From Allomyces arbusculus (lineage: Eukaryota; Blastocladiomycota; Blastocladiomycetes; Blastocladiales; Blastocladiaceae): 64,000 nucleotides of DNA. The position numbers and the translations under genes were made by a program. The notes under the pieces were generated by a model. It saw nothing but the letters and a program-made list of their open reading frames with translations. It had not been told where the DNA came from and made no database searches. The DNA is taken from NCBI GenBank assembly GCA_027604705.1, contig JADHYV010000071.1, positions 33,416 through 97,415 on the forward strand, in the 5' to 3' direction. Positions 41,070-63,084 of this stretch are shown piece by piece (positions within the stretch are counted from its first letter, which is position 1; every line of letters starts with the position of its first letter).

Positions 41070-44000
41070 TCAGTCCTTGGCCCCAGCCCCACGCACCGGC
41101 AACATCCCGCGGGACGTATTCGCCGTCGCCAGTACCCCTTCGGACGTGGCACTCGGCAAACTCGTGCCCTCCTTCGCATTCGCGCCGCCCGACGCGCGCG
41201 GATCCTTACTACGGGACCTCGACGTGGCCGATACGGTGGCCACACTCGCCATCACCTTCGCCCAGGCATCGCGGTCCTCATCCTTCTCGAACTGGATCAC
41301 CCAGCTACGTCCGCGGGAGAAGATCGCCAAGCAGGTCGTGTAATTCACGGGGCTCGGATCAAACGTGGTGCCCGCGAGCCGCACCATCGTGCCCAGGTGC
41401 CCGACCGTCTCGGCCGAATCCGGCACAAGCGCCAGGTACCCGTCCCCCGCGTACAGGTGGACCGCGTGCATCTTCCACGTCGCAAACCACCGGCTCGTTT
41501 CCTTGATCGGGTACCGCCCGTGTACGTGCGCGACTTTGCCCGTGTCGTGGTTCAGCGATACCTTCATCGCCGCCTGCGCGCGGGCCGTGGCCGCGCCCGT
41601 GGCGGTCAGGGTGCCGGCGCCGCCGGTCTTGCCTGTGTCGGAAGCAGCGGATTCGACGTTGGCGGCGCCGCGGAGGAGGGCGACGACGAGCCGCCCAACG
41701 AGGGCCATGTAGGTGAAGAGCACGGCGTAGATGAGCAGAATGGTGCGCACAATGTACGCGCCAAGGGCAAAGTCGGAGAGCGAGATGAGGCTGAAGGAGA
41801 GGACGATGATCGCGACAAAGCCGACGTTCTACAAAGGGACGGCGGCGGTGTGAGGTGGGGTGAGTTGGGCATCCGGACGCGTGCGCACAGAAGGTATGTG
41901 ATCCGGACCTGGCTCGTGTACATGATCCAGAGCGTCTCGCGGAACGAGGAGGCCACGTTACGCGTCTACACCCACATGTCGGTTGGTCAGTCTTGATTTC
42001 CTTCAAAAACCCATCTCGTTGCGCGAAGGACCCGGTGCAGACCTTGTACCCCAAGAAAATCACAAACAAGAGCAACAGCGCGTTGATCGCGACCGAGACG
42101 CCTGTGACGACAGCCACGCCCGTCGGGTTACTCGACCGGCACTCGTAATACAAGTACTGCTTGGACGTGACAGCGACGGGCGTTGACGGGAACGCGCCAA
42201 GCCAAATCGCGAAAACGATGGATTGCACGAAAATGACCCCGCCAACGAGCCGGAACAGGTACTCGTTGTTGATGGCGCGCAGGCGGCGCATCGACTTGTC
42301 TGTTTGGTGGGGAGGGAGAGGGGGGTGAGCGAGGTCGGCGACGTGCGCGCGGGTGGAGCGAGGAGTACGAACTGTCTATAAAGTGGGTGGAGAGCGTTGG
42401 TGAGTCTTTGCCGCGTCAACAAGCAATACCACAGCAATAATAATGGACCGACCAAAAATCCGCCAAATCTAGCAAAGGAAGACCCCAACCGTCAGTCCGC
42501 GCTCGACGCAGCCATAATCTACAAAGCGGCCAACAACATACCCGGTACGTCTTAACCGCGGCACTCGTCATCGCCATCTCGTACCCGACCGTCAAAATCC
42601 ACACGGGTGCATGGCACGTCACCCTGGACGGTAATCCCACAGTGACGAACTCGCTCACCAGGACCAACTGGCACCCGACCGTAATCATCACCAGGAACGG
42701 GAAACTCAAGTTTTTCACCATCGGTTTCGCGCGGTGCATGATGAGCACGCCCGTACCCGCCGAGAGCAGGGCCAGGAGCAACCCGCGCACGGCGGCCATC
42801 GCGACCACAAACGGGTCCGACCAGGTCGGGTAGAGCGGGGTCTTGGGCGGGATGTCGGGCGGCGTGATGGCGGTGCCGGTATAGAATTGTGGGGGGTTGA
42901 TGCTCACGACCGACGCGTTCGCGTAAACATTGTAGGCGACGCGCTTGGTGCCGCCGTACATGTTCCAGACGGAGAAGTCGCTAATCACGCACGCAAGCGT
43001 CAGCGACACGCGCACCCGATCCACACCCACAAACGAAGGAGGTACCCGAGCCGGTCGCCCGTATCTGTAAATGCCAGCGTCCCTGTGGCGCCACTAAACG
43101 GCGGCGTGAAGAAATTATTCACGAGCCACAGGTTTTTCATCGTCACGTTCTCTGCACCGTAGTTGACGGCGATCTGGATCAGGCCCTTGGCGAGCGCGAG
43201 TGCACAGTCGTAGTTCAGCCCACCGTAGGCGACCGCGTCAGGCGAGGTCGTCTTACCCATGGCCGCCCACGCCGCTTCCATTTGCTGGTACGGCGGCGTT
43301 CCCGTTGCGAGTAACGGGTAGACAAAGAAGACGCCCTGCGTGTTGGCCAAGTCGGACGCGTAGGTCGGCGAGGACGGGCTGAGATAGGATAAGTACTCGG
43401 ACATGGCATCAGTGCCGATCTAGATGAGGAAGGCTCGTGAGTCGAGTTCACGCGTGTTCGAGACGGATCACATCGGCGGTCGCGTACCCAGACGTGACTT
43501 GCATCGAGCGCGCCCTGCTTACGCGCCTCGCGCATCAGCGTGATCGCGTCGTCGCCCGACGAGAGCGCGAGAATGACCACGTTCGACTCGCTATTGAGAA
43601 TGTTCTTGACTTGTGCGCTCATGTCCTGCGTGCCCGACGAATAGACGTCGCTCAGCGACAGCGTGATGTTGAGCCCGTGCGCCGCCTCCGTAAAACTCGC
43701 ACCGACTACCAGCGAGGGGGTGGGGGTCAAGACGGGTGGAGAAGGATGCGAGGACGAAGAGGAGGCAACGTACTTGATGTCCCGTACGAGTCGGTCGACG
43801 CGAGCATGTTCACGTGTGTCCACCCCATGGATTTGACGAACCGCGCGAGCGCAACACCTTGCTGCGAATCGTCGGGAATCGTGCGAAAGAAGCGCGGGAA
43901 ATCGTCCTATCCACGCACAGCTCGCCGTGTCAATTGGCCACCGCAACGAACCAAACCCAACGCTCGCGCGGGCGGACGTACCTTGCTCAAATCGGTACTC

Positions 44001-44570
44001 GACGCCATGCCCGAGCAATGCCACGTCCGCACGCGACTCTCGGCAAGCACCAACGGTACAGTCGTGCCCGATGCGGCCTCGCCAATGTAGGCCACCGTGT
44101 TGTTCTTATCGTAGAGGTCGTACATGGCGGCGATCGCGCCGGCCCGCGAGTCCATGGAGTTGCCGGGAATCAGGTTGAACTGGTAGTAGGTCGAGTTGTA
44201 GCTGTTCATGACGGGTAACGCCGTCGTGATCAGCTGGTAGAGCGTCTGAATCGAAAGGTTCGGCGTGCCGTCTGTCCGAAGCGTACGGTTTGTGGTCAGC
44301 GCGGGTTTCGTGGAATCGCGCCGATGAGGTTGATGCAAGCGTACCGGGCTCCGTCAGCGGCAGGATCACGCCGATATTGAACGTCCAAGGGGTCGCGAGC
44401 ACGTCAGTCGGCGCATGCGCAACGAGAAGGAGCAGCACGGTCGCCGTGGCCATGATCACGACGCGCGCCAGTGCTGAAATCGACCATGGTGACCACTGCA
44501 AGTGCGTGCGCCGTGCCGACGTTGGTAGTCGCGGCGGGCGCGCCGCTGGTATTGAGCGCGTCGGATCCAT
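41070..44570 (-). CDS. Class C (GABA-B-like) receptor with PH-like tail, copy 2
   Basis: Ten exons, all phase-consistent: 44345-44570, 43982-44271, 43774-43906, 43488-43705, 43046-43419, 42542-42980, 42453-42468 (16 nt), 42043-42299, 41909-41965, 41070-41828; 922 aa. The N-terminal hydrophobic segment is VVIMATATVLLLLVAHA. A Venus-flytrap domain (~55-410) begins FNIGVILPLT and includes WHCSGMASSTDLS, FPRFFRTIPDDSQQG and GWTHVNMLASTDSYG. Seven helices (~465-735) start at WSDPFVVAMAAVRGLLLALL. Helix 3 ends SAAVKTYR-IWRIF-D, the class C signature, split by the micro-exon. Helix 7 is IVRTILLIYAVLFTYMALVG. The tail (~775-890) reads as a PH-like domain: RWFATWKMHAVHLYAGDGYLALVPD, then SWVIQFEKDEDRDAWAKVM. 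Ligand unknown. Family members sense small molecules and signal through G proteins. About 40% of positions look shared with copy 3 by eye. Confidence 0.9.
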
Positions 44571-45693
44571 GGCGAGGTGCGACAGGTGGAGGGGCTCGAC
44601 GATGGTGGTCGGTAACGGGTCTGTCTGCGTGGGATGCGTGTTGTTGGTCAATCCGAGGACCGGCACCCAAGAAACGTCGAGCGGGCAGGGTGGCGCGTCA
44701 CGACATGGACGGAACAGTTTGATTGTGTTGAGATGGAGATTCGCGCCTTGACGCGTCAGGTCGGTTGAGAAGAAAACGATCTGCAGCTGGGTTCCGCCGG
44801 TGGAGCGCAGTGACATGATTCAGCACCAGTTTGAGAGGCCGACTGGCCAACGCGGCGCCCTCCCTTGAATTGCGACTGGTCGCGCCAGCGGGTCGTCAAG
44901 AACGCGACGTGCGGACGCGCCCGTCATCTGCCAACCTCGTGCGAAAAGAGCTGAACGTTGACAGGGAGACACTTCTTTGATCTCAGTGGGAGACGAATAA
45001 TGCGTCGCAAAGAGCATTGGTTCAACTTGGTGAGGCTTGGCAAATGGCACGCAATCGACGTGGTCTGGCTTGAGATGGTGACCATGTGGATATTGTGATT
45101 TCTATGTCCTCGGAGCCGAATATAGTTTTGGGTATGACCCCGATGATCTCGACAACGTGTCCGAGTGGTTAAGGAGATTGACTAGAAATCAATTAGGCTT
45201 TGCCTGCACAGGTTCGAATCCTGTCGTTGTCGGTGACTCACTTGTGGGCTTGTCTGTTAGCCCGTTCCGAGCATTCCTCTCTTGGACTACCTCCAAGGTA
45301 ACACCAGTTAGTCTTCATTTTTGGTCAGGGCAACTGACTATCCTTCCTGAGCAAGACTGCGATACGTTTTGTTCTGCTCCTGGTTAGTTGATGGAACGGA
45401 AGGCCGTCCCACATCACGACTGCTGTTGAATGGTGCAGCATTTCCATCAAACATGATCAGGTCGACATCACAGGTTCGCATCCGTTGTAGCTGAAAGATG
45501 GATTAAAATGTCTTCGAAGTGGACTTGCATGCCACGGCCACGGAGGTCGGTTCTAACGCATACGTTATTTCTCAAGGCGCTCTTCTAGACAGTCAAAGAT
45601 GCTAATCGGCCCTTCACTCACTTCTCCGCGCTGGGGCCCGCAACAACATCGGCAGGACAGCAAAGCGTATTTCCAATAAATACTGGCTATCCA
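44571..45693. other. AT-richer intergenic region with a tRNA gene
   Basis: 5' flank of receptor copy 2 and 3' flank of the YcnI-like gene, with tRNA-Ser(AGA) at 45151. Near 45469-45487 there is a T-arm-like fragment (ACAGGTTCGCATCC) without the rest of a tRNA. Confidence 0.5.
45151..45232 (+). tRNA. tRNA-Ser (AGA)
   Basis: 82 nt; identical to the other two Ser(AGA) genes except GGCTTTGCC in place of GGCTCTGCC at the variable-arm boundary. Confidence 0.95.
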
Positions 45694-46461
45694 TTACAAC
45701 ACAAGCGCCATCCCCACCGCCAGCGCACCCACCACCCCCACGACCGTCTTCCCCATCACCTCATTCCTGCCCGCGCCCGACTTACTCGCCGTCGCTGTCG
45801 CATTCGCACTCCCCGCCCCCGAGCCCGCCGCCGACGACGCCGAGTCGACAATCTTGACCGTCGGTGCCGGATGCTCGTACGCCGTCTTATCATCGGCGCC
45901 CTTAGGCACCTGCGTCCACTCGGCCGTCATGTTCCCCTCGCACTTTTGCACCGCCGGGAAGTAGTAGACCTTGCCGGCGTCGGCCGCGGGCGTCTTCCAC
46001 TGGATCCCGAAATCGTAGTACTGCCAGTCGGGCAATGCGTTGCCCGGGCCCGCGGTCCAGGTGACCGATGCAACTTTCCAGGTGTAGTTCGTCCCGCCGA
46101 CGGTGGCCGGTGGAGTCAGCGTCTTGTTGTCGATGGAGACGGCCCACCCGGGGGTCATCGCGGGCTTGACGGTGTAGACGTCGTCGCTGGAAAGGGCGAA
46201 GTTGAAATCGATCAGTTTGGTGCCGACGCGGCGTGGACGGACGGTGGTCGGAGCAGAAGGAGAATGGACGTACGGAATTTGAACTGTCACGGCGTTCGTG
46301 GCCGCGCCTGAACACCCGTGCGGCACGCGCAATGCCGTCACCGTGTAGGCGTTGGCCGGGGCGGTCGCCGGGTTCATGGTCGCGTGCGCGTGCGCGCCTG
46401 CGAGCAGCGCGAGCACGACCGCCAGCGCGAGAAGAGCGAGTGTTGGTGCCGGGAAGGTCAT
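45694..46461 (-). CDS. YcnI/DUF1775-type copper-binding surface protein, probably GPI-anchored
   Basis: 255 aa, single exon. The signal peptide is MTFPAPTLALLALAVVLALLAGAHA; cleavage would expose HATMNPATAPANAYTVTALRVPHGCSG, the opening of bacterial YcnI domains, where the new N-terminal His is a copper ligand. The domain continues with AVTVQIPYVHS, PAMTPGWAVSIDNK, VTWTAGPGNALPDWQYYDFGIQWKTP and YYFPAVQKCEG. Conserved Trp/Pro/Gly positions are kept. A Ser/Ala/Gly/Thr linker then leads to a hydrophobic C-terminus (VVGVVGALAVGMALVL) preceded by small residues (SKSGAGRN), the pattern of a GPI signal. Extracellular, wall- or membrane-anchored copper binding is inferred. In bacteria the domain often sits beside CopC/CopD-type genes; none is here. 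A minus-strand TATAAAT lies about 75 nt upstream, near 46531-46539. Confidence 0.85.
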   Translation of the reverse strand: MTFPAPTLALLALAVVLALLAGAHAHATMNPATAPANAYTVTALRVPHGCSGAATNAVTVQIPYVHSPSAPTTVRPRRVGTKLIDFNFALSSDDVYTVKPAMTPGWAVSIDNKTLTPPATVGGTNYTWKVASVTWTAGPGNALPDWQYYDFGIQWKTPAADAGKVYYFPAVQKCEGNMTAEWTQVPKGADDKTAYEHPAPTVKIVDSASSAAGSGAGSANATATASKSGAGRNEVMGKTVVGVVGALAVGMALVL

Positions 46462-47590
46462 GGCTGCAGCGGGGATGGCGAGGGAATCAGAGTGCTGAGA
46501 GATGAGGGGCGGGGAGCGCTCGAAGCCCGAATTTATAGGCCCGGTCGAGCACAGGAGGGACGGAATAAAGCCAGCAACAAAGCGCCAAAGCTCGGCGAGC
46601 TCAGCGAGCTCGCCATCGAGCTCGTCAAGACCGAATTTCGCATGGACGGGCACGAGGAGGAGGCGGGGGCCGAGAGCGCGTCACGTGCGCGTCGTTGACC
46701 GCTGTGGCTCGTCGTGCGGCTGGAAACACGTGCTTTGGTTGCATGCAAACGTGCATGCACGGCCGGCAGCGGTGAGAGGCGAACGGTCCGACGTGGCAGG
46801 CGAGAGAAGGGTCGATGGACGTGGACCGTGCGGTGGATGCGGCATGCGCGTGTTTGCAGTCGACTTCATGGGCAGGGCGGTCGCAGCATGAGAAATGGCA
46901 GACCAAATCACATCGCCGTCGTCGCCGTTGTCGTCGTGGCGTCGTCGAGGTGCTGGAGTCGACGGGCGCGCATGCATTTCCGTGCGTGTTAGCCGGTCGG
47001 GTCGAGCTCACGGATCCGCCATGGCGGAAGTCGCCCGGGAACGTGCAGCGGGGATGGTGCTGGACGTGGTGGTTGCTGCTGGAGTGGGGGCGGGAGCAGA
47101 ATCTCGTCGAACAGCTCGAAATTGTCGCATTTCGCAGAGGAGCAAAGGAACCAACAGACCAATCAAGGCGAGCCGGAATGGACGGAGGGCGGTCTTGGTT
47201 TTTATAGCCGGCCGGGGGACGACGGTGGAGGCCCAAGTGCGCGATTTTCTTTGAGCTTGGCAGCTTGGCGTCGCCCGTATGGCAACGCGGCCTGTGGACT
47301 TCGCGTGACCGCGTCAACGCGCCTCCTGCCTGTGCAACTTGTCGTTTTGTGGCCGTCGTCATGCACGCCGCCAGCACAACCAACCGTCGCCACCAACCGC
47401 GTGCAGCCAGCGTCTAGCCTCGTCCAGTTGTTCCTGTCACTGAGAGCGTGCCGTTGCGGGTCCCATCCTCACCAGATCGACCTGCATCCCGCTGTTCCGT
47501 GCTACAACTGCCTCCGCTATCTCGCGCCAAATACCGTCCCAACAACGTAAACCGTGCTCAACAACTAGACCCGCACCCAGCCCACCAACC
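46462..47590. other. Divergent intergenic region
   Basis: Shared 5' region of the YcnI-like gene (-) and the SLC35F-type transporter (+). It has TATA-like elements on the minus strand near 46535 and the plus strand near 47202 (TTTTTATAG). Open frames in it lack domain support. Confidence 0.45.
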
Positions 47591-48811
47591 ATGGCGCGCA
47601 TCAATCTCGCCCACCTGGCCACGGTCGTCCTCGGCGGCCAAGTCCTATCGCTGCTGATCGCGGCGTCGAACTTGGTCAACACCAAGCTCTGGCAAGTCAC
47701 GGCCGCCGACCCGGACACGGGCTTTACGCTCAGTTTCACGCAACTCGCGCTTCACTACATGTTCCTGCTCGTCGTGTTTATCGGCGTCCACGTGGTCCGT
47801 GCCGCACAGGGCCACTCATTTCGCACCGACGTCGTCGACGCGTTCATCAAGACCTGGAAGTTCTACTTGCCGCTTGGTTTGTTTGATTTCTACGCGAATT
47901 ACTGCGTGACCAAGGCGTTTGGGTTCACGTCGTCGCTGTCGGCGTTTTTGTTGGTCCGTTCATGCCCTCGAGTCGCGCGCGCGATCAGACACTGACCTTG
48001 CCCCTACGAACAGAACTCGTCCTCGACCCCGTTCACCGTGATCATCTCGGTGCTGCTCTTCAAGGCCAAGTACAAGCCTCTCCACTACTTTGCGATCCTC
48101 GTCTCGGTCGCCGGCATGGGCATCGTCTGCTGGCAGGACGTGACGGCCACGTCGCGGCTCGTCGGAGATGTGGCAGACGGCAGTAAGGTCGTGATCGGCA
48201 ATATTCTTGGGCTCGTCTCGGGTCTTTTGTTCGCTGCTGCGAATACGACGCAAGAATTTTCAGTCAAATCGCTCGGCGGACCGCGCGAGTATTGTCTCAT
48301 GATGGGCCTGTTCGGAACCGTGGTCTCGATCCTCCACATGGCCTTGTTCGAAAGGTCCGAAATCACGGCGCTCACGCACGCGCCCGCCGACCAAGTCGGG
48401 CCGATCGCCGCGTGCCTCGCCGGATTCGTCGCGGCCATGTTCTTGTTGTACACGCTCGCATCGCTTTATTTCACCACGGCGTCCGCAACCCTATTCAATT
48501 TGTCGATTCTCACGAGCAACTTCTACGTGCTCGTCGGCACCGTCCTCGTCCTGCATTCGGCGCGCGTGACGGCGTGGTACTTGGTCGGGTTCGTCCTGAT
48601 CGTCGCGGGGTTGGTCGTGTTCAATGGCGACCCGAACGGGTGGTCGGATATGTTCACGCGCGCGCAGGCGTCGCGGGATGTGGAGAGTGGAGGAGGGGCG
48701 CGCACGTCGGCGGATGGGTTGCTCGAGGGGGCGGGGTCGAGCGCGGCGGGTGCGGGTGCGGGGTACGGCACGACGGAGAATGGCGGCGAGGAGGGGAAGC
48801 CCAAGGCGTAG
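47591..48811 (+). CDS. SLC35F-type solute transporter (drug/metabolite transporter fold)
   Basis: Exons 47591-47953 and 48014-48811 (intron GTCCGT...CAG, phase 0) give 386 aa. About ten membrane helices: from VLGGQVLSLLIAASNLVN through YMFLLVVFIGVHVV, FYLPLGLFDFYANYCVTKAF, STPFTVIISVLLFKAKY, HYFAILVSVAGMGIVC, GNILGLVSGLLFAAANTTQEF, CLMMGLFGTVVSILHMALF, GPIAACLAGFVAAMFLLYTL, LTSNFYVLVGTVLVL and AWYLVGFVLIVAGLVVF. The DFYANYCVTKAFGFTS and 'S.TPF' segments match SLC35F1/F2 relatives. The cytosolic tail is Gly/Glu-rich. Substrate is not predictable; animal SLC35F2 has been linked to import of nucleoside-like compounds. Lys-rich end (GKPKA) is not a clear ER-retrieval signal. Confidence 0.9.
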
Positions 48812-49267
48812 ACAGTTGGTGGTGCTGGGTGGATGAATGTGTTCCCCTATTTTCTGATGTTGATGTTGTGCTGAGTGGTTGTAAGATGGGGGGTACGTAG
48901 AGAAGGTGTGTTTGCGAATGCCGCTTTGCGCGCCATGATACACAGAGATTTTGGGTGGGGATGGTTTGTCTTGCTCGCTGAATCGCGCACGTCGTTTTTG
49001 CGCGAATATGAGCCGGTTGTCCGACAGTCGATCATGCCGACGTGCACTCGGACAACATGAAGCTGTGAAGGAAGCAAATTGAGCAACAGAAAAGACCCAT
49101 GACAACGCTACACGTGACGGCACGCGATGCGAACCGCACTCCCGACCGCCATGCGTTCTTTCGCCGCACGCCCAGGAAAACTGCCGCCGCCAACGCCGTT
49201 GCTTGCTCCCTCTCTCCATCCGCCCATTCCCCATTTGGCTTGGTCACCGCTGAGTTCTCTTATCAAC
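48812..49267. other. Intergenic region
   Basis: 3' flank of the transporter and promoter of RPS20. It is AT-richer around 48850-49080. No other gene seen. Confidence 0.5.
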
Positions 49268-49639
49268 ATGTCTCAAGTCGCCAAGTCCGCCGCGAACAAG
49301 CCCGGCTACGAGGAGTCGGCCGACGTTAAGGTGCACCGCATCCGCATCACGCTCTCGTCGCGCAACGCCAAGGCGCTCGAGAAGGTGGCCGGCGACCTCG
49401 TCAAGCGCGCCAAGGACAAGGACCTCAAGGTCAAGGGCCCCGTCCGTCTCCCGACCAAGCACCTGTCGATCACGACGCGCAAGGCGCCCAACGGCGAGGG
49501 TTCCAAGACCTGGGACCGCTTCGAGATGTCGATCCACAAGCGTCTGATTGACCTGATCTCGCCGTCGGAGATTGTCAAGCAGATCACGTCGATCTCGATC
49601 GAGCCCGGAGTCGAGGTCGAGGTCACGATCGCCAACTAA
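49268..49639 (+). CDS. RPS20: 40S ribosomal protein S20 (uS10)
   Basis: 123 aa, one exon, the normal family length. Conserved blocks: [49 protein letters not shown] (in part), [27 protein letters not shown]. It sits in the head of the small subunit. Codon use is strongly biased to C-ending codons, as in ATP1. The Met at 49268 (CAACATGT) matches the family start; the open frame upstream is leader. Confidence 0.98.
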
Positions 49640-50862
49640 GGCGTCGGTGATGCGTTTGCGTTTGCCGTGCTGAGTCGTCGGCGTCGGACGCTCGCGTGGC
49701 CATGGGCAGCGGGTTCGTTTCGGCCGGGTGCGCGGTGAGCGCGCGGAGCGCATGCGTGCGGCTCGTTTCTTCAAATATAAGTTGGACGGGACGGCGCGTC
49801 GCTATCGCAATCGCTTCATTTCCATTGTCGCCGTGGCCAGGGCTGCTCCTCTCGCGTCGTCGTCGGCGTGGACATTCATCCGTTCTTGTCAAAGAGCCGG
49901 ACTCCAGCAGAGTGGAACATGATCTGATTTGTCAGGCCAATGAAGTGGAGCGTGCAAACATGGAACAGTGGGCGCGTTGTCAGTGTCGCCCCGGCGAAGG
50001 CCGAGGCGGGCTTGGTTTGGTCGTTGGCGGTCATGGTTGCGGTTAAGTTTGTGTGGCGCCTTGCGGCTGGGCCAACGAAAAGGAAACGGCGCCCGCGCTT
50101 CCGAGTCGACCGCTGCTGCGCACGAGGCGCGGAAAGCGAAGCGAACGGCAAACCGCTGCCGGCCGTGCTGGTCGGCCCCCGGCCTCGGGGTCACGTCCCT
50201 CACGGCCCTCCACCGCGGCCAAGCCAACGCCCGACCGACCGGCCGACCGTCTCCTGCACACTCACCGCACAAACATCCTCGCGACCGACTCCGTTGCTCT
50301 CGCGCCCTCCTGCTTGCTGCCCCGAGGCCCCGACTTGCTGCAAACCGACGCTCGACACCCGCGCCGTGCCGTGCCGTGCCGTGTCTGCCAGTGCCGGCCG
50401 TGACTTGCTTGCTTGCTCGGCTCCTGCGAGGAACCCCGCCCGCGCTCCTGCCCCGTTCAACTGCTGCTCGCAACTCCAGCTGTTTGCCAACGACGCCGGC
50501 GCTCAACGTCCCTGCCCGACTGTGATCTGCGCGCTCGTGCGGTGGTTCCTGGACGTCGGCGCTGCACTCCTCCCGCTGCGCTGATCCGCCCCGCCTGCCT
50601 GCCTGCCTGCGCCCGATCTGCCGTGGTCGCTGTCGGCCGCCGTGGTCAACTCTGATCCGCGCGCTCGCAAACTACGAGGCCAAGATGGCCGCACCAGCGT
50701 ACGTCTCCTCGTTGGTGGTGTGCGCACCCGGCCCGCCGCTCCCGTTCGTGTGCGACGTTACCAGCCGCCCGCCGTGCTATATGCGGTGGTCAGCGAGTCG
50801 ATGACTTGTTCTTCCCCCTGGCACGCACTCACCACGCGCTCCGCCCTTGACCAAACAGCAGC
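49640..50862. other. Intergenic region
   Basis: 3' flank of RPS20 and 5' flank of the C2H2 gene. Tandem GCCGT(G)CC-like and TGCCTGCC short repeats occur near 50360-50385 and 50595-50615. No gene or RNA recognised. Confidence 0.4.
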
Positions 50863-52902
50863 ATGGCCACCGCGCCGCCGCCCACTTCCTCGTCAACCAC
50901 GACTCGCCCGGCCGCCGCGTCTGCGTTCAGCGACCACCGCGGCCACGCGGCCCTGTCCCCGGTGACTCCATTGATCCGGCACGTCCCCGTCCCGCCCAAC
51001 CTGCCCCCTCTCTCCCCGGACCACGACGAGGCCGTCTCGCTCGGCCCGCCCGCGTCGGCGCCCACACCGCTCGTTACCAGCTTGCGCACGCCCGTTGTTC
51101 CGCCTGCCACGCCCTTGCCGGACTCGCCGGCGATGGGACTCGCGTTGCTGAGCCTTGTTGCGGACCAGCTGCTCGCGGCCGAGTTCCCGGCCGACGACCG
51201 CCGCAGCCAAGGGCAGCAGCAAGGGCCGGGGACGTGGTTACCGCCCGGCTCCCCGCGCGTCCCGCGCGGGTCGTTGCTCGGCCGCCCGCTCTTGGCCGCC
51301 GCCGCGGCACCACGTGCGCGCGTTCCGTCGGTCACGACTGCCCCGGCCGTGACGTTGCCCTACGCCGCCCCCGGCGCGGCCAAGTCGCCTTACCTCGACC
51401 ACGCAGCGCCGCCCATGTTCGCGTCCCCGCGTCCCGCGCACGCCGCGCTCCTGTCGCATTCGGCGACGGCGTCGCCGCGCGCGAATTACGCGTCGCCGCG
51501 GCCCTCGCACGCGCCGTTGCTGACGACCCGGTCGGTCTCGGCGTCGCGCAAGCGCGCGTCGTCGCCGACGCTGCCGCTCGCGCACGGGCCCGTCACGCAG
51601 TCGCCCGCGCCGGCGCACGCGGCGCTGCGCGTGCATGACGAGGAGGAGCTGGATGATACGCCGAGGAAGAGGACGAGGACGCCCGCGCCGCCGGAAGATG
51701 AAGAAGGAGTGCCGCCGCCGCGCACGCGGTCGGCGTCTGGATCGTCGATCACCGGCGTGGGCGGGGGCGTGCACGCGGGCGTCTGGGTCGCGCCGGCGTC
51801 GGCGCCCGCCGTCCCGCCAGTCCCCCCACACCACCACCACCACCACCACCACCACCATTCGGGCGAGTCGATGGACGCCGACCCGAAACCTGACCCGGAC
51901 GCACACTCTGGCGGCTCGTCAGGGGACGACCCGTCGTCGAGCGACCGCAACGGCGCGCCCACGGCCATGTTCCCGTGCGAGACGTGCGGCCGGTCGTTCA
52001 CGCGCAAGCACGACTTACGGCGACACCATATGGTGATCCACGAGCAGGCACGGCCGTTCCGGTGCCCGAACCGCATCATGTGCCAGTTCCAAACGAACCG
52101 GCGCGACCAGCTGTTGCGGCACTTGAAGAACCGCATCCATTGCCTCGAGTACGTCCTCCTGCACGAACATGTGTTGGCCCCCGGGATGGAGGAGACGTTT
52201 GGCGCGCGGTGGCGCGAACTGGTCATGCCAAAGTTGCCGGCGGGCGTGCACACATCGCCGGTCGTCCCGCACGCGGCAAGGGTCGGCGCGGTCGCAGCGA
52301 GTCCCGCAATGAGTGCCGCGCCGTCGCCAAGCGTCGCGCCCGCCAATGGCGGCGGGGGCGCGCCGCTCTTGCGCGCGCCCACCGCCGTCCCCCCGCCCGC
52401 ACCGCTCCTCCGCGCGGCCCCGCCACCGCCGGCCCCCGGCGTCCTGCTCCCGGCGCCCGCGGCCCCGCCGTCGCCGCCGCCGCCGCCACCACCGTTCCCG
52501 ACGGCGCCGCCCGCGACGGGGGCGGCGGTGCGACTCCCGCCGCTCCAGCCGCCGAGCCTGCACCACACGCACATGCACCACCACCACCACCATCACCACT
52601 TGCACGTGCTGCACCCGGCCAACGGCACGGCACCGCCAGCGAGGGCGCCGTCCCAGGGTGCGTATGGCGGCGCGGGGGACGCCGGACCGCTGCCGTCGAT
52701 CAGGGCGCTGCACCTGGCGGGACCCACGGTGGCGCCGCCGAGGGGGGTCCCGCCGCCGCCGATTCCGATGCCGGGCATGGTCGCGCGGCAGCCGCCGATG
52801 CCGCCGCGGAGCGCGAGCGCGAGTCGGAGCTCCGCGGACGACGCGTCGTCGCTGTCGAGCGCGTCGGGCAGTGGCGGATCGGGTGGCGGCGCGGGCGCGT
52901 AG
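50863..52902 (+). CDS. C2H2 zinc-finger transcription factor
   Basis: 679 aa, one exon. Residues ~1-365 are Pro/Ala/Ser-rich with basic patches (PRKRTRT near 270) that could serve as a nuclear signal, and a His10-11 run (CAC repeat, 51828-51857). Finger 1 at ~370-392: PCETCGRSFTRKHDLRRHHMVIH, canonical C2H2. Finger 2 at ~397-425: RCPNRIMCQFQTNRRDQLLRHLKNRIH, with a five-residue Cys spacer, so atypical. A QARPFRC linker replaces TGEKP. Between and after lie HLEYVLLHEHVLAPGMEE and a long Pro/Ala tail with a second His run (near 52580). DNA binding is inferred from finger 1; target unknown. Confidence 0.8.
   Translation: MATAPPPTSSSTTTRPAAASAFSDHRGHAALSPVTPLIRHVPVPPNLPPLSPDHDEAVSLGPPASAPTPLVTSLRTPVVPPATPLPDSPAMGLALLSLVADQLLAAEFPADDRRSQGQQQGPGTWLPPGSPRVPRGSLLGRPLLAAAAAPRARVPSVTTAPAVTLPYAAPGAAKSPYLDHAAPPMFASPRPAHAALLSHSATASPRANYASPRPSHAPLLTTRSVSASRKRASSPTLPLAHGPVTQSPAPAHAALRVHDEEELDDTPRKRTRTPAPPEDEEGVPPPRTRSASGSSITGVGGGVHAGVWVAPASAPAVPPVPPHHHHHHHHHHSGESMDADPKPDPDAHSGGSSGDDPSSSDRNGAPTAMFPCETCGRSFTRKHDLRRHHMVIHEQARPFRCPNRIMCQFQTNRRDQLLRHLKNRIHCLEYVLLHEHVLAPGMEETFGARWRELVMPKLPAGVHTSPVVPHAARVGAVAASPAMSAAPSPSVAPANGGGGAPLLRAPTAVPPPAPLLRAAPPPPAPGVLLPAPAAPPSPPPPPPPFPTAPPATGAAVRLPPLQPPSLHHTHMHHHHHHHHLHVLHPANGTAPPARAPSQGAYGGAGDAGPLPSIRALHLAGPTVAPPRGVPPPPIPMPGMVARQPPMPPRSASASRSSADDASSLSSASGSGGSGGGAGA
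51828..51857. repeat. (CAC)n tract coding poly-His
   Basis: About ten units, in frame in the C2H2 factor. Confidence 0.9.
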
Positions 52903-53431
52903 CGCAGCGCGCTGCGCGCGAGGAAGAGAGGTTGCCGTGTCTTGTCGTTTCGTTTCGTTTGAACCGGGCTGGGATCGAAATGGACTCAAGTTGAAATAGA
53001 TGCGTGTGTCCAGCGCTGCGTGTGTCGAGCGCTGCGTGTGCCCAGCCCTGCGACGCAGCCGAGGAGGCGGCCGCGGATGCGAGCGGTCAGGTGGGCAGGC
53101 GGACCCCGGGGGGGCAGGGCGAGGCGGCCCCACGTGTGCGGCACAGCAGCGCGGCGCGTGACAAACTCAAGCCCAGGCGACGCGCCGCGCGCTGCCGCTC
53201 CGCCGCGCGCTGTCGCCGCCGCTGCCGCCAAGCCGTGCCGACGACGACGCGCCCGCCGCTGCCCGACTGCTTCTCCCCGTCCGACCAGGAGAGCGCGCCC
53301 GCACCGCACGAGCGCGGCGCTGCTCGAGCGCACCAGCAACCGCCAGCAACCGCCAGCAACCACCAGCACAACCACCACTGACCAGCAGCACCAGCAGCAC
53401 CAGCAACAACAACAACATCTCCAACACCACC
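52903..53431. other. Intergenic region
   Basis: 3' flank of the C2H2 gene and 5' leader of the WASP gene. A CAGCAACCGCCAGCAAC-type tandem repeat and CAG/CAA-rich leader lie just before the start codon. No other gene seen. Confidence 0.45.
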
Positions 53432-55871
53432 ATGCTCGGCGTCGCCACCGCAACGGGCGGCGCCAACTCGGCCGAAACGCTCGCGCGCCGCGCGCTGCCC
53501 GGTCTCGCACACGGCGCGCGCCCGCCGGTACGCTCGCTCGGCTCGTCCTGCACGTGCATGTCTTGCCGTGGAACAGACAGAACCTGACGTTTGCCCCTCC
53601 TCCCACGACACTACCCAACAGACCCTGCTCGCCGCCGCACACGCGCGCATCTACCTGTCCACCGGCACGCAATGGTCCCTGCAACACGAGGGCGTCGCCG
53701 CGCTCACGGGGTCGTACGCGCGCCAGGGCACCGACCTCGCCATCCACCTGTTCGCCGACGGCACGCGGCACGTCTGGACGCAGCGGCTCTACCGCGGGTT
53801 CGAGTACCGCCAAGACCGCGCGCTGTTCCATTCGTTTGAGGGGGACGACGCCGTCGTCGGGATCGCGTTTGCCAACAAGGCCGAGGCGCTCGCGTTTGCG
53901 CACGCGGTGCTCGCGTTGCCGCTCGAAGAGGAGGAGCACGTGGTGGAGAAGCCCAAGTGGGGGACGCCACCACCGATGATGGCCGCGCCCGTCCCGGTCG
54001 CAATCAACGGGTTCGCGGTCGGTGGCGGCAGCGCGAGTGCCGATGCGGCGCGCACGTCGGCCTTGGCCGCGTCGTCGAACGGGAAAGACGCCAAGGACAA
54101 GGACAAGAAAAAGGCCAAGAAGGAAAAGAAATCGAAAAAGTCGAAGTCCTCGTCGTCCTCGGCGCGCGACGACCTCAAGGCCAAGATCTCGACGCCGTTC
54201 GACTTCCGGCACACGGCCGGCATGAAACTCGCCGACGACGGCCGGTTCGAAATCTCCAACCTCAAGCCCGAATGGCTCGCTGCCATTCACCAGGCGGGCA
54301 TCTCGGACGACATGCTGCGCGACGAACAAACGCGCGAGACGGTCCTGCAGGCGCTCAAGGACGCCGAGCACGCCGTGCACGAAGAACGCAAGTCGCTGAA
54401 ACGGCAGAAGAAGGCCGAGTCGGTGGTGGGGGTCCCGACGCACGCGCCGCCCCCGCCGCCCATGCCGGCGGTTGTCGTGCACCCGCCGAACCACGCGCCC
54501 CCGCCGCCTCCCCCGCCGATCAACACGTACGGCGCGAGCAACGCGTACGGCGCGCCGTCGACGTCGGCCCCGGCGGCCCGCCTCTCGCCGCGCCCGCCCG
54601 CATGGACCCCGCCGTCCCCCGCGCGGTCCCCTCCACCGCCCGTGCACGCCCCACCTCCCCCTCCGCCGGCGGGGATCGCGCGCACCCCGACGCCCTCGCA
54701 CCCGCCGCCTCCCCCTCCTCCGGCACCGACGGCGCGCGCAGCCACGCCGCCTGCGCGTCACGCCCCGCCGCCGCCTCCCGCGCGCCGTGGTCCACCACCT
54801 CCACCGCCCGCACGTCGGCGCGGGCCACCGCCGCCGCCGCCGAAACGGCGGCCGGGTGAAGCGCATGGGGCTCCGACACGCGGACCTCCGCCGCCGCCGC
54901 CGACCGTGCGGCCCACGGCAACGGGTGGAGGGCCGAGCAGGGTGCCTCCGCCGCCGCCGCCGGGGGTGCGTCCGGGGACGGCCACGCCGAGTTGGGTCCC
55001 GCCGCCGCCGGCCCCGCCGGTGCAGCATGTCGCGGCGCCCGTGGTGGCGAGCGGTGGGCCACCCCCGCCGCCGCCGCCACCCCCGCCTGTCATGCATTTC
55101 GGCGGTGCCGCGACGGCCGTCGCGAGCGGTGGTGCACCGCCCCCGCCGCCCCCGCCGCCGCCGGTCATGCATTTCGGCGGCGGCGGCGGCGGCACCGCGG
55201 CGGCCGAGACGCAGTCGGCGCCGCCCACGCGGTCGGCACCGCCGCCCCCACCTCCGCCCCCGCCGGTTATGGGCGGGTCGTCGGCGCCGCCGTCACGCTC
55301 GGCCCCGCCACCCCCACCGCCCCCACCGCCCGTCATGGGCACGGCCGGTGGGCCGCCGCCGTCGCGCACGGCCCCGCCGCCTCCTCCGCCGCCGCCCGTC
55401 ATGGGCGGCGGCATTCCGCCTGCGGTCGGCGGCGACGGTCGGTCGGCGCTGATGGACGCGATCCGCAACGTCAACAAGGCCGCGGTCCTGAAAAATCACG
55501 TCGAAGAAGGGTCCGGCGTCCCGCCGCCGCCCCCTCCCCCGCCGCCTGCGATGGGCGGCGGGGCGGCCCCTCCCGCACCGATGCCCGCGATGGGTGGTGG
55601 CGATGGCCGGTCGGCGTTGCTCGATCAGATCCGCAATGTGGACAAGTCCGCGGTCCTGCGCAAGGTCGGGCCGCCCAACGGCGAGGGAGGTGTCGCCGCG
55701 CACGGGACCGGCGGGTCCACGGGCGCGGCCGCGGCGGTCGGCGGCGCAGTCGCGGTGACCGGGTTGGCCGGGTTGTTTGCGCAGGCGCTGAAGCAGCAGC
55801 GGGAGGCGATGGGGGAGTCGGGGTCGGAGGATGGGAGCAGTGACGAGGACGAGGACGATGATGATTGGTGA
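53432..55871 (+). CDS. LAS17: WASP-family Arp2/3 activator
   Basis: Nucleates branched actin by presenting actin to Arp2/3, usually under Cdc42/Rac and phosphoinositide control. Exons 53432-53527 and 53577-55871 (GTACGC...CAG, phase 0), 796 aa. WH1 domain at ~45-155: ARIYLSTGTQWSLQHEG, WTQRLYRGFEYRQDRALFHSFEGDDAVVGIAF. A Lys-rich basic patch (KDKKKAKKEKKSKKSK, ~210-228) is followed by a CRIB/GBD (~236-300: ISTPFDFRHTAGM, WLAAIHQAGISDDML). Hence it is full WASP architecture, unlike yeast Las17, which lacks a functional GBD. A Pro-rich span (~320-645) has many P5-P9 runs for profilin and SH3 partners. Two WH2 motifs follow: DGRSALMDAIRNV (~653) and DGRSALLDQIRNV (~708). The central/acidic end is LAGLFAQALKQQR...DEDEDDDDW, with the terminal Trp. 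Confidence 0.96.
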
Positions 55872-58607: not shown

Positions 58608-59183
58608 ATGGCCCCGTCCGCAAACAAGAAGCGGCCACCAGACGAGGTCCGTAGACTGGCCACGACCGCCATCAACGACGAGCACGAGATGGCGTACCGC
58701 CGCGCAATTTACCTGAGTGCGCTGCAAAATGACTTGGAGCGGATGCCCGCGGGCGACGCGACGGAGATTGGCGAGAAGTGCATCAACGTATACGCACGAT
58801 TTAATTTCATTCTTGCAATGAGCATGACGGCAGAGGACTAACAAATCTTCTCCACCCATTTTACCCAGCTCTCGGGCGGCCAAAAAGCGCGCGCAAACCT
58901 GGCGCACGCGCTCTCCTCGGACGCCAGCGTGTTGCTCATGGACGACATTCTTGCTGCCGTTGACGCGCACGTGGCCGCGCTCCTGTTCCACGCGTGCATC
59001 AAGTCGAGTCTGCACGGCAAGGCGCGCGTGCTCGTCACGCATTCGCTGTCCAACGCGGCGCAGTGCAACTACATCGTGCTCATGGAAAGCAGCCGCATCG
59101 CTGAACACGGCGCGCATGGGCATGACTTTTTTGTGATCGTTCGATCAATAATGAGGCCTTCAACTCACATAACGAGGAACTGA
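58608..59183 (+). CDS. Half ABC ATPase (ABCC NBD1-like fragment lacking the P-loop)
   Basis: Exons 58608-58787 and 58869-59183, intron GTATAC...CAG with a CTAAC branch-like site, phase 0; 164 aa. The join restores the ABCC order [41 protein letters not shown], then Walker B and D-loop (SVLLMDDILAAVDAHV) and H-loop (VLVTHSLSNAAQ), ending at IVLMESSRIAEHG. Walker A, Q-loop lead-in and all transmembrane domains are absent; the first ~25 residues (MAPSANKKRPPDEVRR) are unrelated. So it cannot hydrolyse ATP alone. Either a truncated gene relic or a short expressed gene with its own TATA-like element and intact splice signals. The Walker B Glu position is Ile (DDILAAVD), so it is also catalytically degenerate, as NBD1 of ABCC proteins often is. 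Confidence 0.65.
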
Positions 59184-59465
59184 GCGCGGCAGGCGCGGCA
59201 CATCCTTCAAGGAGCGGGTGTGGAGCGAACCACAAATTCAGCATTTCGTCGAACCAAGCTGAGGAAGTGTACGCAAAGCAAAGGATGCACACACGAAGAC
59301 CAAACTATGAGATTGATTTGCACGCCGCGCGTGCGGCTACTATGCCTATCCTATCCACCTTCCCGACGTACAGTCCTCGACTCGGCTTCCCAAGCTCATC
59401 GGCACTAGTCTCCCCCTCCTGTTCCCAGTCCCTCCGCTCTCATATCCTCCTCCACCCACAGCCAC

Positions 59466-62400
59466 TCAGAACTGTCGCGTCGGCCGCGTCGGCTGCAACG
59501 CCGCGCGCGACGCGTTCACTGAAGTCCCCGGCAATCCCGCCTCCGACGCATTCGTCTGCGCCGTCCCAGTACGCGCCAGCGCCTCGGCACTCTTCCCCTT
59601 GCCCATCTTCCCGGTCGCAGTCTCCTTGTTCGGCGCCGCCGCCGACATTTCCGCGGGTTTCCCTGTTGCACTGCGCGACCGCGAACTTGAACTGACCGTA
59701 CACGTCGCGGCCAAGACCTTCACCCAGGCATCGCGGTCCGGCTCCGACTCGTACTGCACGAGCCACGCGCGGCCATGCGCAAACAGCTCGATACAGAGTG
59801 CCGCGCGGCCCGGGTTCGGGTCGTACTGCGTGCCGGCCAGCGGAAGGATCACACCGTGCGTGCCCTGCGTGTCCTGCGAGTCCGGAACGAGCGCAATGAT
59901 CGCGTCGCCCGAGAAGAGATGGACCGCGTGCATCGTCCATGTTGCAAACCACGCCGACGATTCCTTGACCGCGTACTGGCCCGAGACGTGTGCGACCTTG
60001 CCCGTCTCGTGGTTCATCGACACGTGCATTGCCGGGTTCGGAGCGGCGGCAGTGGTCGTCACGGCCGCACGCGCGGCGCCCGTCATGCTTGTCGTGCCCA
60101 CACCGCCGGTGGCGAACTTGGCGCGCGCAGCGGCGGCCGCCCCGGCGGGCGGGTCGGCAGCTCCTTCAGGTGCACTGGCGGTGCCGCGGAGCAGTGCAAT
60201 GACGACGCGGCCGACAAGCGCTGCGTAGGTGAAGGCGACGACGTAGATCATGACGATCGTGCGGATCATGTAGGCGCCGAGAATGAAGTCGCCCATGGTG
60301 ATGAAGCTGAACGAAAGAATGATGACGCCGGCAAACGCAATGTTCTACCACCCGGCGTGCGTGGATGAATTGCGAGGGGACGGGGCTCGCGGACGTGACG
60401 GGGGAAAAAAATCAAGTACCTGTGCGACGTACATGATCCACAGCGTTTCGCGGAACGACGAGGCCACGTTGCGCGTCTACAAGTGTCCACCTCTCCCCGT
60501 CAGATACGGCGACACCTCGTCCACTCGAATCTTCCCCCCTCCTTGTGCACCAACCTTGTACCCGAGGAATATCACCGCCACGAGCAACGCCACGTTGAGC
60601 GCGAGCGTCGTGCCCATGACCGCCTGCTCGCCGACCGTGCTCGACGAAGTGCACGTGTAGTAGAGCAGTTTCTTGCTGTTCGAGGCCACGGGCGAGCTCG
60701 GGAACGCGCCGAGCCAAATACCGAAAATAATGCTTTGCAGCGCGATCAGCGAGGCCACCATCTTAAACAGATACGGGTTCTGAATCGTCTTGAGCCGCCG
60801 CATCGACTTGTTGTCTACGATCGCATCGGGTGGTCAGTCAAGGAATCGGCCGAGGAGCATGGACACGACGAGATGAAATGGGCCGGACCAAAGATGCGCC
60901 AGATCTAGCACATGAGACGTGGAAGAGCGTCAGTTTTCGATTCGGCCAATGAGCGCGCCAACCATCCCAAGGCAACGCACCCGGTATGTCTTGACGGCAC
61001 TGCTCCCAATAATCATCTGGTACCCAATCGTCAAGATCCACGCGGGCGCGTGGCACGTGACGCGCGACGGTTTCCCAATCGAGACAAACTCGCCGACCAG
61101 CACCCAAATACACCCGTTCGTGATCAGCACGAGGAAGGGGAACGAGAGATTTCGGACGATCGCCTCGTTGCGGTGCTTGAACAGCACAGCCGTGCCGGCC
61201 AAGAACAGTACAATGAGGATGGCGCGCACCAGCGACGTGATAATCACGCCCGGGTCAGACCACTGCGGGTACAGAATCATCTTGGCCGGAATGTCGGGCG
61301 GCGGGGTCGACGAGCCCGAGAAGAATTGCGGGGCAGCCACGGACTGGACAGAGCCGTCGGCGAACACGTGGTAGGCCGCATACCGCTGCCCGCCGTACAT
61401 GTTCCAAACTGAAAACGACCTACGTCGGTGAGAAGCGGCGCAGTCAGTCTCGTCACCGATAGTCGGCACGATGCGATACAGCCAGCCGTACCCGGCACGA
61501 TCACCCGTATTTGAAAACGAGACCTCCCCCGTGGCCCCGGCAAACGGCGGCGGCAAGAAATCACGCTCCAAGACCAGGTCCGCACGCGTCACGTTCGTGG
61601 GCCCAACAAGCTCGGCCGTCTGGATCAGACCGCGCGCGAGGGCCACGGCACAGTCGTAGTGCAGTGCCGCGTACGGGACTTTGCTGATCGGGTAGGTCGT
61701 GTTGATGGCCGAGTAGGCGGCAGCCATCGTCTGGTAAGCCGTGCTGTTCGTGTCGACATACGGCGCAAGGTAGAGCACGCCATTCGCATTGGCCATGTCG
61801 GTCGCGTAGTTGCTTGATGTGGGTGAGATCCCGTTGGTCATATACAGTTCGAGCGCGTCGGTCCCGAGCTAGGAAGGGCACGTGCAACTGATCAGGGCAA
61901 GCTTCGAGGAGCGCGGGTCGGAACATGAGCGTACCCAGGCATTGTCGGCATTCAACAGGCCCTGCGCGCGCGCCTCGCGTAGGAGCACGACAAAGTCGTC
62001 GGCGTAGGCGGCGACGACGTTCACGTTCGAGTAACTGTTGGCCAAGTTGCGTACTTGCGGGCTCAGATCCTTGTCGCCCGGCACATAGACGTCGGTGGTG
62101 GCAATCGTGATGCCGAGCAATTGCGCCTCGGCGAGGAAGCTGGATGCGACTGCAAAGTAATCATGGTGAGACGAGTAAGTCGCGTGGAACGAGGACCGGA
62201 CGACAAACCAAGTACGTACTGGTCGAGCCATACGAGTCAGTCGCCACGAGCAAGTTGATGTGCGTCCACCCCATCGCGAAAGCAAACTTGGCCATGGCCG
62301 CGCCTTGCTGCACGTTGTCCTAGATGGTCCGACCCCGCATCCCTTAGTCATCATTTCTCGCCACTCCATCGGCGCATGTGCTTCGAACAGTGACGCACAG

Positions 62401-63084
62401 GAATTGTCCGGAAGAAACGCGGAAACTGGTCGCTGCTCAAGTCGCTGCTGGACGCGCTGCCGCTACAATGCCACGACCGGATCCGCGACTCGGCATAGAC
62501 GAGAGGGATCGTGTTCTCCGACGTGTACTCGCCAATGTAGGCCACCGTGGCGTTGTTATCTGCCGTGACCCCAAACCGTCAGTTATTCCGCCGGTGGTCG
62601 GATGGATGCGAATCAATTCGTACCGTAGAGCCGCCACATGGCCGAGATCGCGTAGGCGCGGTTGCCGCCCGAATTGCCGCGCACAAACCCGAATCGGTAG
62701 TTTGGGTTTAGCGCGTTCATGACGGGCAGCGCCGATATGATCACTTGCCACAACGGCAGGATGTTGGGGTCCACGACAATCGACGCTGGCGGGCAAAGAC
62801 AGGACGCTTCGGGTCAGCATGTCGTTCGACATGAGGAGGCGGTGTCGATATGGTGTAGAGACGGCGTACGCACACAAATTCGTCGTTGGAAGCACGACCC
62901 CAATCACGTAGGTGGTCACGGCGTTTGCGGACCCGGCAAAGAGTACGGTCACAGCCATCACCACTCCAAGCACGGCCGCGACGGTCATTGCAACGTGGAT
63001 AGCACGATCTCGGCGCACCCCGGCTCGAAAACGGTGCCTGCGGGGCCCGCCAGCGCGGTCCCTCAGCGGGCATGCGGACGGCAT
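59466..63084 (-). CDS. Class C (GABA-B-like) receptor with PH-like tail, copy 3
   Basis: Eleven phase-consistent exons: 62874-63084, 62624-62785, 62399-62559, 62220-62319, 61935-62149, 61492-61868, 60981-61419, 60889-60904 (16 nt), 60555-60814, 60420-60476, 59466-60344; 958 aa. The N-terminus has Arg-rich sequence then a hydrophobic segment (MTVAAVLGVVMAVTVLFAGSA). The flytrap domain includes IGVVLPTTN, ALPVMNALNPNYRF, VAYIGEYTSENTIPLV, WHCSGSASSSDLS and MGWTHINLLVATDSYG. The seven-helix domain includes WSDPGVIITSLVRAILIVLFLAG, AVKTYR-IWRIF-D and MIRTIVMIYVVAFTYAALVGR. The tail is PH-like (AWFATWTMHAVHLFSGDAIIALVPD; AWLVQYESEPDRDAWVKVLAA) and ends Thr/Arg-rich. Compared with copy 2, it has one extra intron (62560-62623), and the intron after the WHCSG block is shifted by about 13 codons. 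Confidence 0.9.

Follow-up and report, generated by a model that had tools for sequence, protein, structure and literature searches.

Introduction

Do the class C receptors encoded in this stretch of Allomyces arbusculus DNA end in a folded cytosolic domain, and if so, which domain is it and what might it do? Class C receptors matter as drug targets, and their cytosolic tails are mostly unfolded. We find that a PH-type module is present on the inside end of many receptors in the large glutamate/GABA-type family of this swimming-spore fungus.

Two receptor genes with matching tails

The window (the whole stretch of DNA that was analysed, 64,000 nucleotides) encodes two intact class C receptors, both on the minus strand and with open frames, at the positions proposed in an earlier sequence-only reading. 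Their features are as follows.

41070..44570, minus strand: copy 1 class C receptor gene; 10 exons, 922 aa, predicted start codon; ANF_receptor and 7tm_3
42947..44390 (approximate, introns counted in), minus strand: copy 1 Venus-flytrap ligand-binding domain; PF01094, E 5.6e-37, residues 105-422
41673..42841 (introns counted in), minus strand: copy 1 seven-transmembrane domain; PF00003, E 2.1e-33, residues 466-714; TM7 and the PH block share an exon
41541..41672, minus strand: copy 1 Ala/Thr/Gly-rich linker, 44 residues
41232..41540, minus strand: copy 1 predicted PH-fold cytosolic domain, residues 767-869; weak PF00169 match (E 0.14), family profile, model and Foldseek
59466..63084, minus strand: copy 2 class C receptor gene; 11 exons, 958 aa, predicted start codon; ANF_receptor and 7tm_3
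61386..62916 (approximate, introns counted in), minus strand: copy 2 Venus-flytrap ligand-binding domain; PF01094, E 2.3e-32, residues 94-417
60189..61280 (introns counted in), minus strand: copy 2 seven-transmembrane domain; PF00003, E 6.8e-33, residues 461-710
60003..60188, minus strand: copy 2 Ala/Thr-rich linker, 62 residues
59694..60002, minus strand: copy 2 predicted PH-fold cytosolic domain, residues 781-883; PF00169 match (E 0.0052), ASAP1 PH domain by phmmer (weak) and Foldseek

The 19 predicted introns of the two copies (64-153 nt) were placed by hand at GT-AG borders, keeping the frames of the conserved domains. For the receptor part, Pfam matches of both proteins are limited to ANF_receptor, Peripla_BP_6 and 7tm_3, and both genes thus have the seven-helix and Venus-flytrap domains of a class C (Glutamate-family) GPCR. 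No match to the NCD3G cysteine-rich domain was found in either protein (Pfam, E up to 0.1), and no catalytic domain is among their Pfam matches. In copy 2, the flytrap match stops at residue 417 and 7tm_3 begins at residue 461.

Behind TM7, both copies continue with a linker, the PH block and a Ser-rich end, and in both gene models the block shares exon and frame with TM7. The PH domain is expected to be inside the cell because it is placed after helix 7. We are nearly certain of the architecture as a whole: flytrap, seven helices, a linker of 44-62 residues and a PH domain.

The PH block is 55.3% identical between the copies over 103 residues, with no gap columns. Identity is 50.0% in the linker ahead of it (18 gap columns) and 38.5% in the C-terminal end behind it (24 gap columns). 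The matching blocks were previously given as about 115 residues long; the match holds, and the length was slightly generous, the core being about 103. With the copy 2 tail as query, a genome search gave 29 places (self counted) with E up to 10, of which 23 have E<=0.01; the other window copy matches at E 5.6e-42. The block is therefore no product of chance. An alignment was made from 18 of the 29 places. The eleven left out (L017, L018, L021, L023, L024, L025, L027, L028, L034, L036 and L037) were partial, intron-split, interrupted by a stop at a junction, or redundant. The Trp of the closing helix, earlier described as invariant, is at least 90% conserved in this alignment of 18 tails.

Identity of the tail block

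The block appears to be a PH domain, a conclusion settled by the tail family and not by single copies. The PH profile PF00169 matches the individual window tails weakly (copy 1, E 0.14; copy 2, E 0.0052), and both are below the Pfam cut-off (the copy 2 match covers profile positions 7-104 of 105 at 18 bits; cut-off 25.1). For copy 1, the unrelated PF09276 ranks ahead of PH (45 residues, E 0.062, likewise below its own cut-off). Across the alignment, 11 of the 18 tails match PF00169 at E up to 10 (best 2.1e-6), and the other seven have no listed match. In the genome scan, three tail loci are listed over the cut-off: C42 (28.8 bits) and C74 (26.2), whose matches run through one stop, and C3 (25.0), which passes only with neighbouring matches (25.3).

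Profile comparisons point the same way. All 12 matches in a PDB profile search with the tail family are PH-domain proteins (E 0.0047 to 1.2). In hhalign, the family was compared with PH domains from the same genome (eight of ten loci; L038 and L039 contain stops and were dropped), giving 92% and E 5.3e-7, against 0.2% for a control with the 7TM segment; the two window tails alone reach 49%. The first single-sequence match of the copy 2 tail by phmmer is the PH domain of ASAP1, although weakly (E 0.22 and 0.6).

AlphaFold models of the two window tails are of low confidence (pLDDT 43.2 and 41.9), and each shows six strands and a C-terminal helix, where a PH barrel has seven strands closed by such a helix. 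Foldseek ranked the ASAP1 PH domain first for both of these low-confidence models, with E 1.9e-3 for copy 2 and a weak match for copy 1 (E 0.078, TM-score 0.40, rmsd 13.4). Much of the remainder of the two lists is PH or EVH1, which has the same superfold as PH, along with a few unrelated entries (e.g., microtubule-doublet proteins). The proposal that the tail is PH-like is thus borne out by family profile, PDB search, profile-profile comparison and model topology, and the profile test for PH-like families was passed clearly through the family, not through the single window copies.

Other accounts of the block were considered. It is very improbable that the block is some other small beta domain of similar layout. 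The sub-threshold scores of the window copies, the leading PF09276 match of copy 1 and the low confidence of the models would suit such a domain, but the PH matches listed above the cut-off in paralogous tails, the uniform PDB matches, the hhalign result and the PH and EVH1 entries in the Foldseek lists stand against it. Chance resemblance to PH was rejected, as profile, PDB, hhalign and the two models all give PH. An origin from a separate downstream gene or an assembly artefact can be virtually dismissed given the exon and frame common with TM7 in both copies and the downstream position of tails at 31 of 59 receptor loci (see below); the separate gene was rejected on account of the common exon.

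Tails across the receptor family

The proposed receptor family is found in the genome: a profile search gave 59 7tm_3 loci, which are merged exon matches and not verified genes. At 31 of the 59, a tail or PH match follows on the same strand no more than 1.8 kb downstream, and at 29 of these it reaches E<=0.01. A tail upstream or on the opposite strand was found at none of the 59.

Reading of 20 stretches gave weak PH tails at five loci not counted in the 31. The tail profile picked up L061, L064 and L067 (E 2.1e-4 to 1.4e-5; L064, 3.5e-6), and PF00169 picked up L053 and L065 (E 0.0049 and 0.0018). With these five, the count would rise from 31 to 36 of 59. Pfam gave no match in L063, L052, L056, L057 or one of the two L065 pieces, and in eight short stretches the best tail-profile match was only E 0.032. 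By eye, several of these eight are PH-like; L069 and L070 are not. About 12 loci were left out of the reading. No PH tail was seen in the ~1.8 kb behind the 7TM part of the C8 pair (L069 and L070), and the module is therefore not universal.

Distances between tails correlate with distances between 7TM parts (Mantel r 0.828, p 0.0002, 18 loci); tail and 7TM part have been inherited together at the 18 loci measured. The genome also encodes G-protein machinery, with 37 exon matches for G-alpha and 11 matches for RGS, and two PI3K_C2 matches were identified.

Lipid-binding features

The usual phosphoinositide-binding motif of PH domains is [KR]x(n)[KR]xR in strands 1-2. In the form [KR]x(3-14)[KR]xR it is present in one of 18 tails (two of which, L019 and L022, start after strand 1), and both window copies lack it. 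This scarcity points to binding that is weak or not to lipid. Four of ten other PH domains of the genome have it, and lipid binding by the tails is therefore unproven; the difference (Fisher p 0.041) is not strong because the sequences are related. Three residues past the conserved Trp, at what we take to be the site of the PH specificity Arg, nine tails have His, five have Thr, two have Arg, and one each has Asn and Gln. The strand 1-2 segment is net positive in 17 of the 18, and the beta-1 position is Lys or Arg in 11. In the five C88 tails Leu replaces the beta-1 Lys, although two Arg come next. Over its full length, the copy 2 domain is acidic (net -5), and membrane binding is therefore not favoured. 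Phosphoinositide binding, which the sequence-only reading had put forward, is thus not supported as it was stated.

Possible function of the PH tail

There is an even chance that the tail is a tethered docking or regulatory module, which we consider its best reading. Ligand would shut the flytrap, and the 7TM part would then turn on a G-alpha protein. With its short tether, the PH domain would stay at the membrane and serve the receptor for docking and regulation; there it may hold a partner on the inner face, possibly G-beta-gamma or the surface of a small GTPase (both suggested by analogy). The basic face of strands 1-2 could add a weak, unspecific attraction to acidic lipid. Such a grip would set receptor position or the duration of the signal. 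The full explanation, a PH-tailed class C receptor with a docking or regulatory module, seems to us slightly on the probable side. A more specific version, in which the tail is a feedback sensor within the receptor that upon activation captures G-beta-gamma or a lipid product of the pathway, is unlikely. The PH domain of GRK2 captures G-beta-gamma in animals. If the feedback version were true, each PH-tailed receptor would have its own gain control, with no separate kinase or arrestin step.

Two other roles were weighed against docking. A true phosphoinositide sensor, in which a specific lipid (PI(4,5)P2 or a 3-phosphoinositide) makes output depend on the local lipid, is also doubtful. The ASAP1 PH domain, first by phmmer (weakly) and Foldseek, includes an entry (5c79) that is a PI(4,5)P2 complex, and the positive strand 1-2 segment, the beta-1 Lys or Arg and the PI3K_C2 matches are consistent with a sensor. 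Its expected signature is scarce, however: the basic motif is rarer in the tails than in the other genomic PH domains, Arg at the presumed specificity position occurs in only two, and the C88 tails have Leu for the beta-1 Lys, though two Arg come next. A purely structural fold, serving receptor dimerisation, folding or trafficking in place of the GABA-B coiled coil, is a little less probable still. Such a role fits the inheritance of the tail with the 7TM part, the equal block length in both copies and the little-conserved lipid motif, but not the C8 pair, which apparently has no tail.

In this single genome, about half of the 59 class C loci appear to carry a folded PH module, co-inherited with the seven helices where measured (18 loci). 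They provide a natural receptor set for studying tail regulation that resides in a defined domain, and would allow tests of how zoosporic fungi couple chemosensing to the signalling of lipids and G proteins.

Comparison with known systems

GABA-B receptors end in a C-terminal coiled coil, and the tails of calcium-sensing (CaSR) and metabotropic glutamate (mGlu) receptors are mostly unfolded; unlike both groups, the window receptors have a predicted folded PH domain in this position. Among PDB sequences, copy 2 matches CaSR and mGlu5 best, within its 7TM part (E 4e-19 and 9.9e-15), and solved GABA-B2 chains match residues 391-708. According to the main text of one study, CaSR and mGlu receptors have a cysteine-rich domain, and of the known class C receptors only those of the GABA-B type join flytrap to 7TM without the nine-cysteine domain (PMC5168858). 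The window receptors, with no NCD3G match, resemble GABA-B receptors in this respect and differ from CaSR and mGlu.

Class C receptors are expanded in zoosporic fungi, with 78 in Allomyces macrogynus and 22 in human (Krishnan 2012, PMC3251606); the Glutamate-family receptors of Allomyces and chytrids described there are likewise a lineage-expanded class C set. That study covers N-terminal domains, and its main text does not contain the terms pleckstrin, PH domain or C-terminal. Three strains of anaerobic gut fungi have 51, 24 and 32 class C receptors, described as lacking the ANF domain that the window receptors have and as having pectin-lyase or sugar-binding N-termini; pleckstrin, PH domain, C-terminal and cytosolic are absent from the main text (PMC5168858). 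Among the PMC matches listed (titles and the starts of abstracts), none describes a class C or fungal receptor with a PH domain; subscription journals, supplements and domain databases, which may list the architecture, lay outside this search.

The window receptors are like the GPCR-bigrams of oomycetes and other protists in fusing 7TM to a cytosolic domain. In the main texts of two studies, bigrams carry signalling domains, some acting in phospholipid signalling, that are catalytic (PIPK, INPP, TKL, AC, PDE), some with DEP, and the term PH domain does not occur (PMC6033456, PMC5784254). The window receptors differ in having no catalytic Pfam match. The first match of the tail by phmmer and fold is the ASAP1 PH domain (2da0, 5c6r and 5c79; 14-24% identity in fold alignments), which sits in an Arf-GAP, whereas the PH domain of the window copies sits in a receptor.

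Two class C receptor genes

We identified two receptor genes in the window, each with a complete open frame in its model:

44570..41070, minus strand: copy 1, 10 exons, 922 residues, predicted start codon
63084..59466, minus strand: copy 2, 11 exons, 958 residues, predicted start codon

Splice sites are predictions placed by hand, guided by conserved domain frames. The 19 predicted introns of the two genes are all GT-AG and 64-153 nt long, and the proteins are 54% identical (855-column alignment). ANF_receptor and the seven-helix domain 7tm_3 (PF00003) were identified by Pfam in both (each E < 1e-31); a cysteine-rich domain was identified by Pfam in neither. Among proteins of solved structure, the calcium-sensing receptor and mGlu5 match copy 2 best, with GABA-B2 lower in the list. 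Both are class C receptors, and with open models the claim of two intact genes holds.

Between the receptors, on the plus strand, are genes for an SLC35F transporter (47996-48808), a ribosomal protein of the S10/S20 family (49118-49636) and a protein whose C2H2 zinc finger match is below cut-off (50851-52899). The window also encodes a WASP-like actin regulator (53382-55868, plus strand; WH1 E 2.8e-12, WH2 E 1.1e-5), which has an extended polyproline run and ends in an acidic segment, and, on the minus strand, a DUF1775 protein (45697-46680; E 9.9e-31), a domain known mainly from bacterial copper-related proteins, here in a fungal genome. Pieces resembling the C-terminus of an ABC transporter flank copy 2 at 58842-59183 (plus strand; Pfam 25.1 against a cut-off of 25) and at 63668-63958 (minus strand; by eye, with no Pfam match).

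A PH domain behind TM7

In both copies the TM7 exon also encodes an Ala/Thr/Gly-rich linker (44 or 62 residues) and a 103-residue block, which is followed by a Ser-rich end. The blocks align without a gap column (55.3% identity, close to the 54.2% of the flytrap and below the 63.7% of the 7TM part), whereas the linker has 18 gap columns (50.0% identity) and the C-terminal end 24 (38.5% identity). Thus, the length of the block is constant while its flanks drift.

In single sequences the PH signal is weak. The PH profile PF00169 covers most of its length on each tail below cut-off (copy 1 E 0.14, behind an unrelated short match to PF09276 at E 0.062; copy 2 E 0.0052), and a phmmer search of the PDB with the copy 2 tail gave two matches (E 0.22 and 0.6), both to the PH domain of the Arf-GAP ASAP1. 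It is the tail family, rather than either copy, that decides the identity. In an alignment of 18 tails from this genome, 11 match PF00169 at E up to 10, the strongest at 2.1e-6; any other family is limited to 1-3 of the tails, and several of these families are PH variants. The profile of this alignment found 12 PDB sequences at E up to 10 (hmmsearch; best Centaurin-gamma 1, 0.0047, and ASAP1, 0.013), all 12 of them PH-domain proteins by name or known domain content. Aligned by hhalign with eight further PH domains from the genome, the 18 tails gave a probability of 92% (E 5.3e-7), compared with 49% for the tails of copies 1 and 2 alone and 0.2% for the negative control, a 7TM segment represented by two sequences. 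In a genome scan with PF00169, tail loci on contigs C42, C74 and C3 are listed as exceeding the Pfam cut-off; the C42 and C74 matches each read through one stop, and the C3 match scores 25.0 bits (25.3 with neighbours).

AlphaFold models, made from two-sequence alignments of window sequences only, have low confidence (pLDDT 43.2 and 41.9); each has six strands and then one C-terminal helix. In Foldseek, the top match of either model is the PH domain of ASAP1 (copy 2, E 1.9e-3, TM-score 0.64; copy 1, only E 0.078, TM-score 0.40). The sequence-only reading had described the tail as PH-like, and the PF00169, PDB and hhalign matches bear this out. Of the two findings it named as counting against a PH domain, a lack of PH profile matches was not encountered, the profile match being clear through the family; as to the other, a fold that is not a seven-strand barrel with a C-terminal helix, the low-confidence models have six strands and the helix.

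The receptor family and probable origin of the fusion

We identified 88 7tm_3 exon matches in the genome (25.9 Mb, 197 contigs), which merge into 59 loci. In five genome searches combined, 31 of the 59 are followed on their own strand, no more than 1.8 kb downstream, by a tail or PH match (29 at E 0.01 or better); none of the 59 has such a match upstream or on the opposite strand. With the copy 2 tail as query, 29 places score at E up to 10, and 23 of these reach E 0.01 or better. Queries came from four of the 29 better loci, and each of these was recovered by another query too. Six tail-query matches lie away from any 7tm_3 match, five with E > 0.02; the remaining one (C80:35194, E 9.7e-9) has TM7-like sequence in front of it. 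Since introns interrupt several PH tails and the reading extended to a subset of the remaining loci, 31 is an incomplete count; closer reading revealed weaker PH tails at five more. In four loci read on contig C50 (L057, L059, L062, L063) no tail-profile match was better than E 0.41. A receptor pair on contig C8 (L069, L070) has a common tail motif, CKFCKQQIG/CKYCKQQIG; the sequence read behind the 7TM part shows no PH block. The 7tm_3 loci are clustered, with five on C88, six on C98, six on C50 and three on C74.

Pairwise distances of the 7TM part and the tail are strongly correlated (Mantel r 0.828 and p 0.0002 across 18 loci); thus, receptor and PH domain were mostly duplicated as one unit. 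Tails of different subfamilies retrieve each other in genome searches, which points to a single, old fusion event.

Possible role of the tail

G proteins relay the signal of class C receptors, and matches to G-alpha and RGS are present in the genome. The tethered PH domain may dock something on the inner face of the membrane. A phosphoinositide had been proposed as ligand. In 17 of 18 tails the segment of strands 1-2 carries a net positive charge, yet the copy 2 domain is acidic overall, and the basic motif that marks specific phosphoinositide binders occurs in 1/18 tails (two of which start after strand 1) versus 4/10 other PH domains of the genome (Fisher p 0.041, for related sequences). These features lead us to consider a protein partner, perhaps with weak lipid contact, more likely than a sensor of a specific lipid. 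G-beta-gamma, the other ligand proposed, would be an attractive putative partner.

Comparison with known receptors

A microbial-rhodopsin match at L076 (G000:C7:515350-516000; PF01036 E 1.2e-26) shares one open frame with a guanylyl cyclase domain (PF00211 E 5.7e-21) that comes after it. A second microbial-rhodopsin match was found at L077 (G000:C15:369892-370536). The rhodopsin-cyclase fusion, implicated in zoospore light sensing, is known from Blastocladiomycota, Sanchytriomycota and four orders of Chytridiomycota (PMC9616733). Given the fusion and the class C expansion, we infer that the genome is that of a zoosporic fungus.

Class C expansions are described for Allomyces and chytrids (PMC3251606), for both Blastocladiomycota and Chytridiomycota (PMC12842992) and for gut fungi (PMC5168858). 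No paper among the open-access literature matches listed places a PH domain on a class C or fungal receptor. The terms pleckstrin and PH domain are absent from the available portions of Krishnan 2012 (PMC3251606), the 2025 fungal classification (PMC12842992) and the gut-fungus study (PMC5168858); in those of the 2025 choanoflagellate survey and the GPCR-bigram papers (PMC6033456, PMC5784254) pleckstrin occurs only within DEP. The PH-tailed class C receptor is thus apparently a new variation, although domain databases may already list the architecture. The receptor fusions of the GPCR-bigram papers carry catalytic domains, whereas the receptors of the window carry a PH domain.
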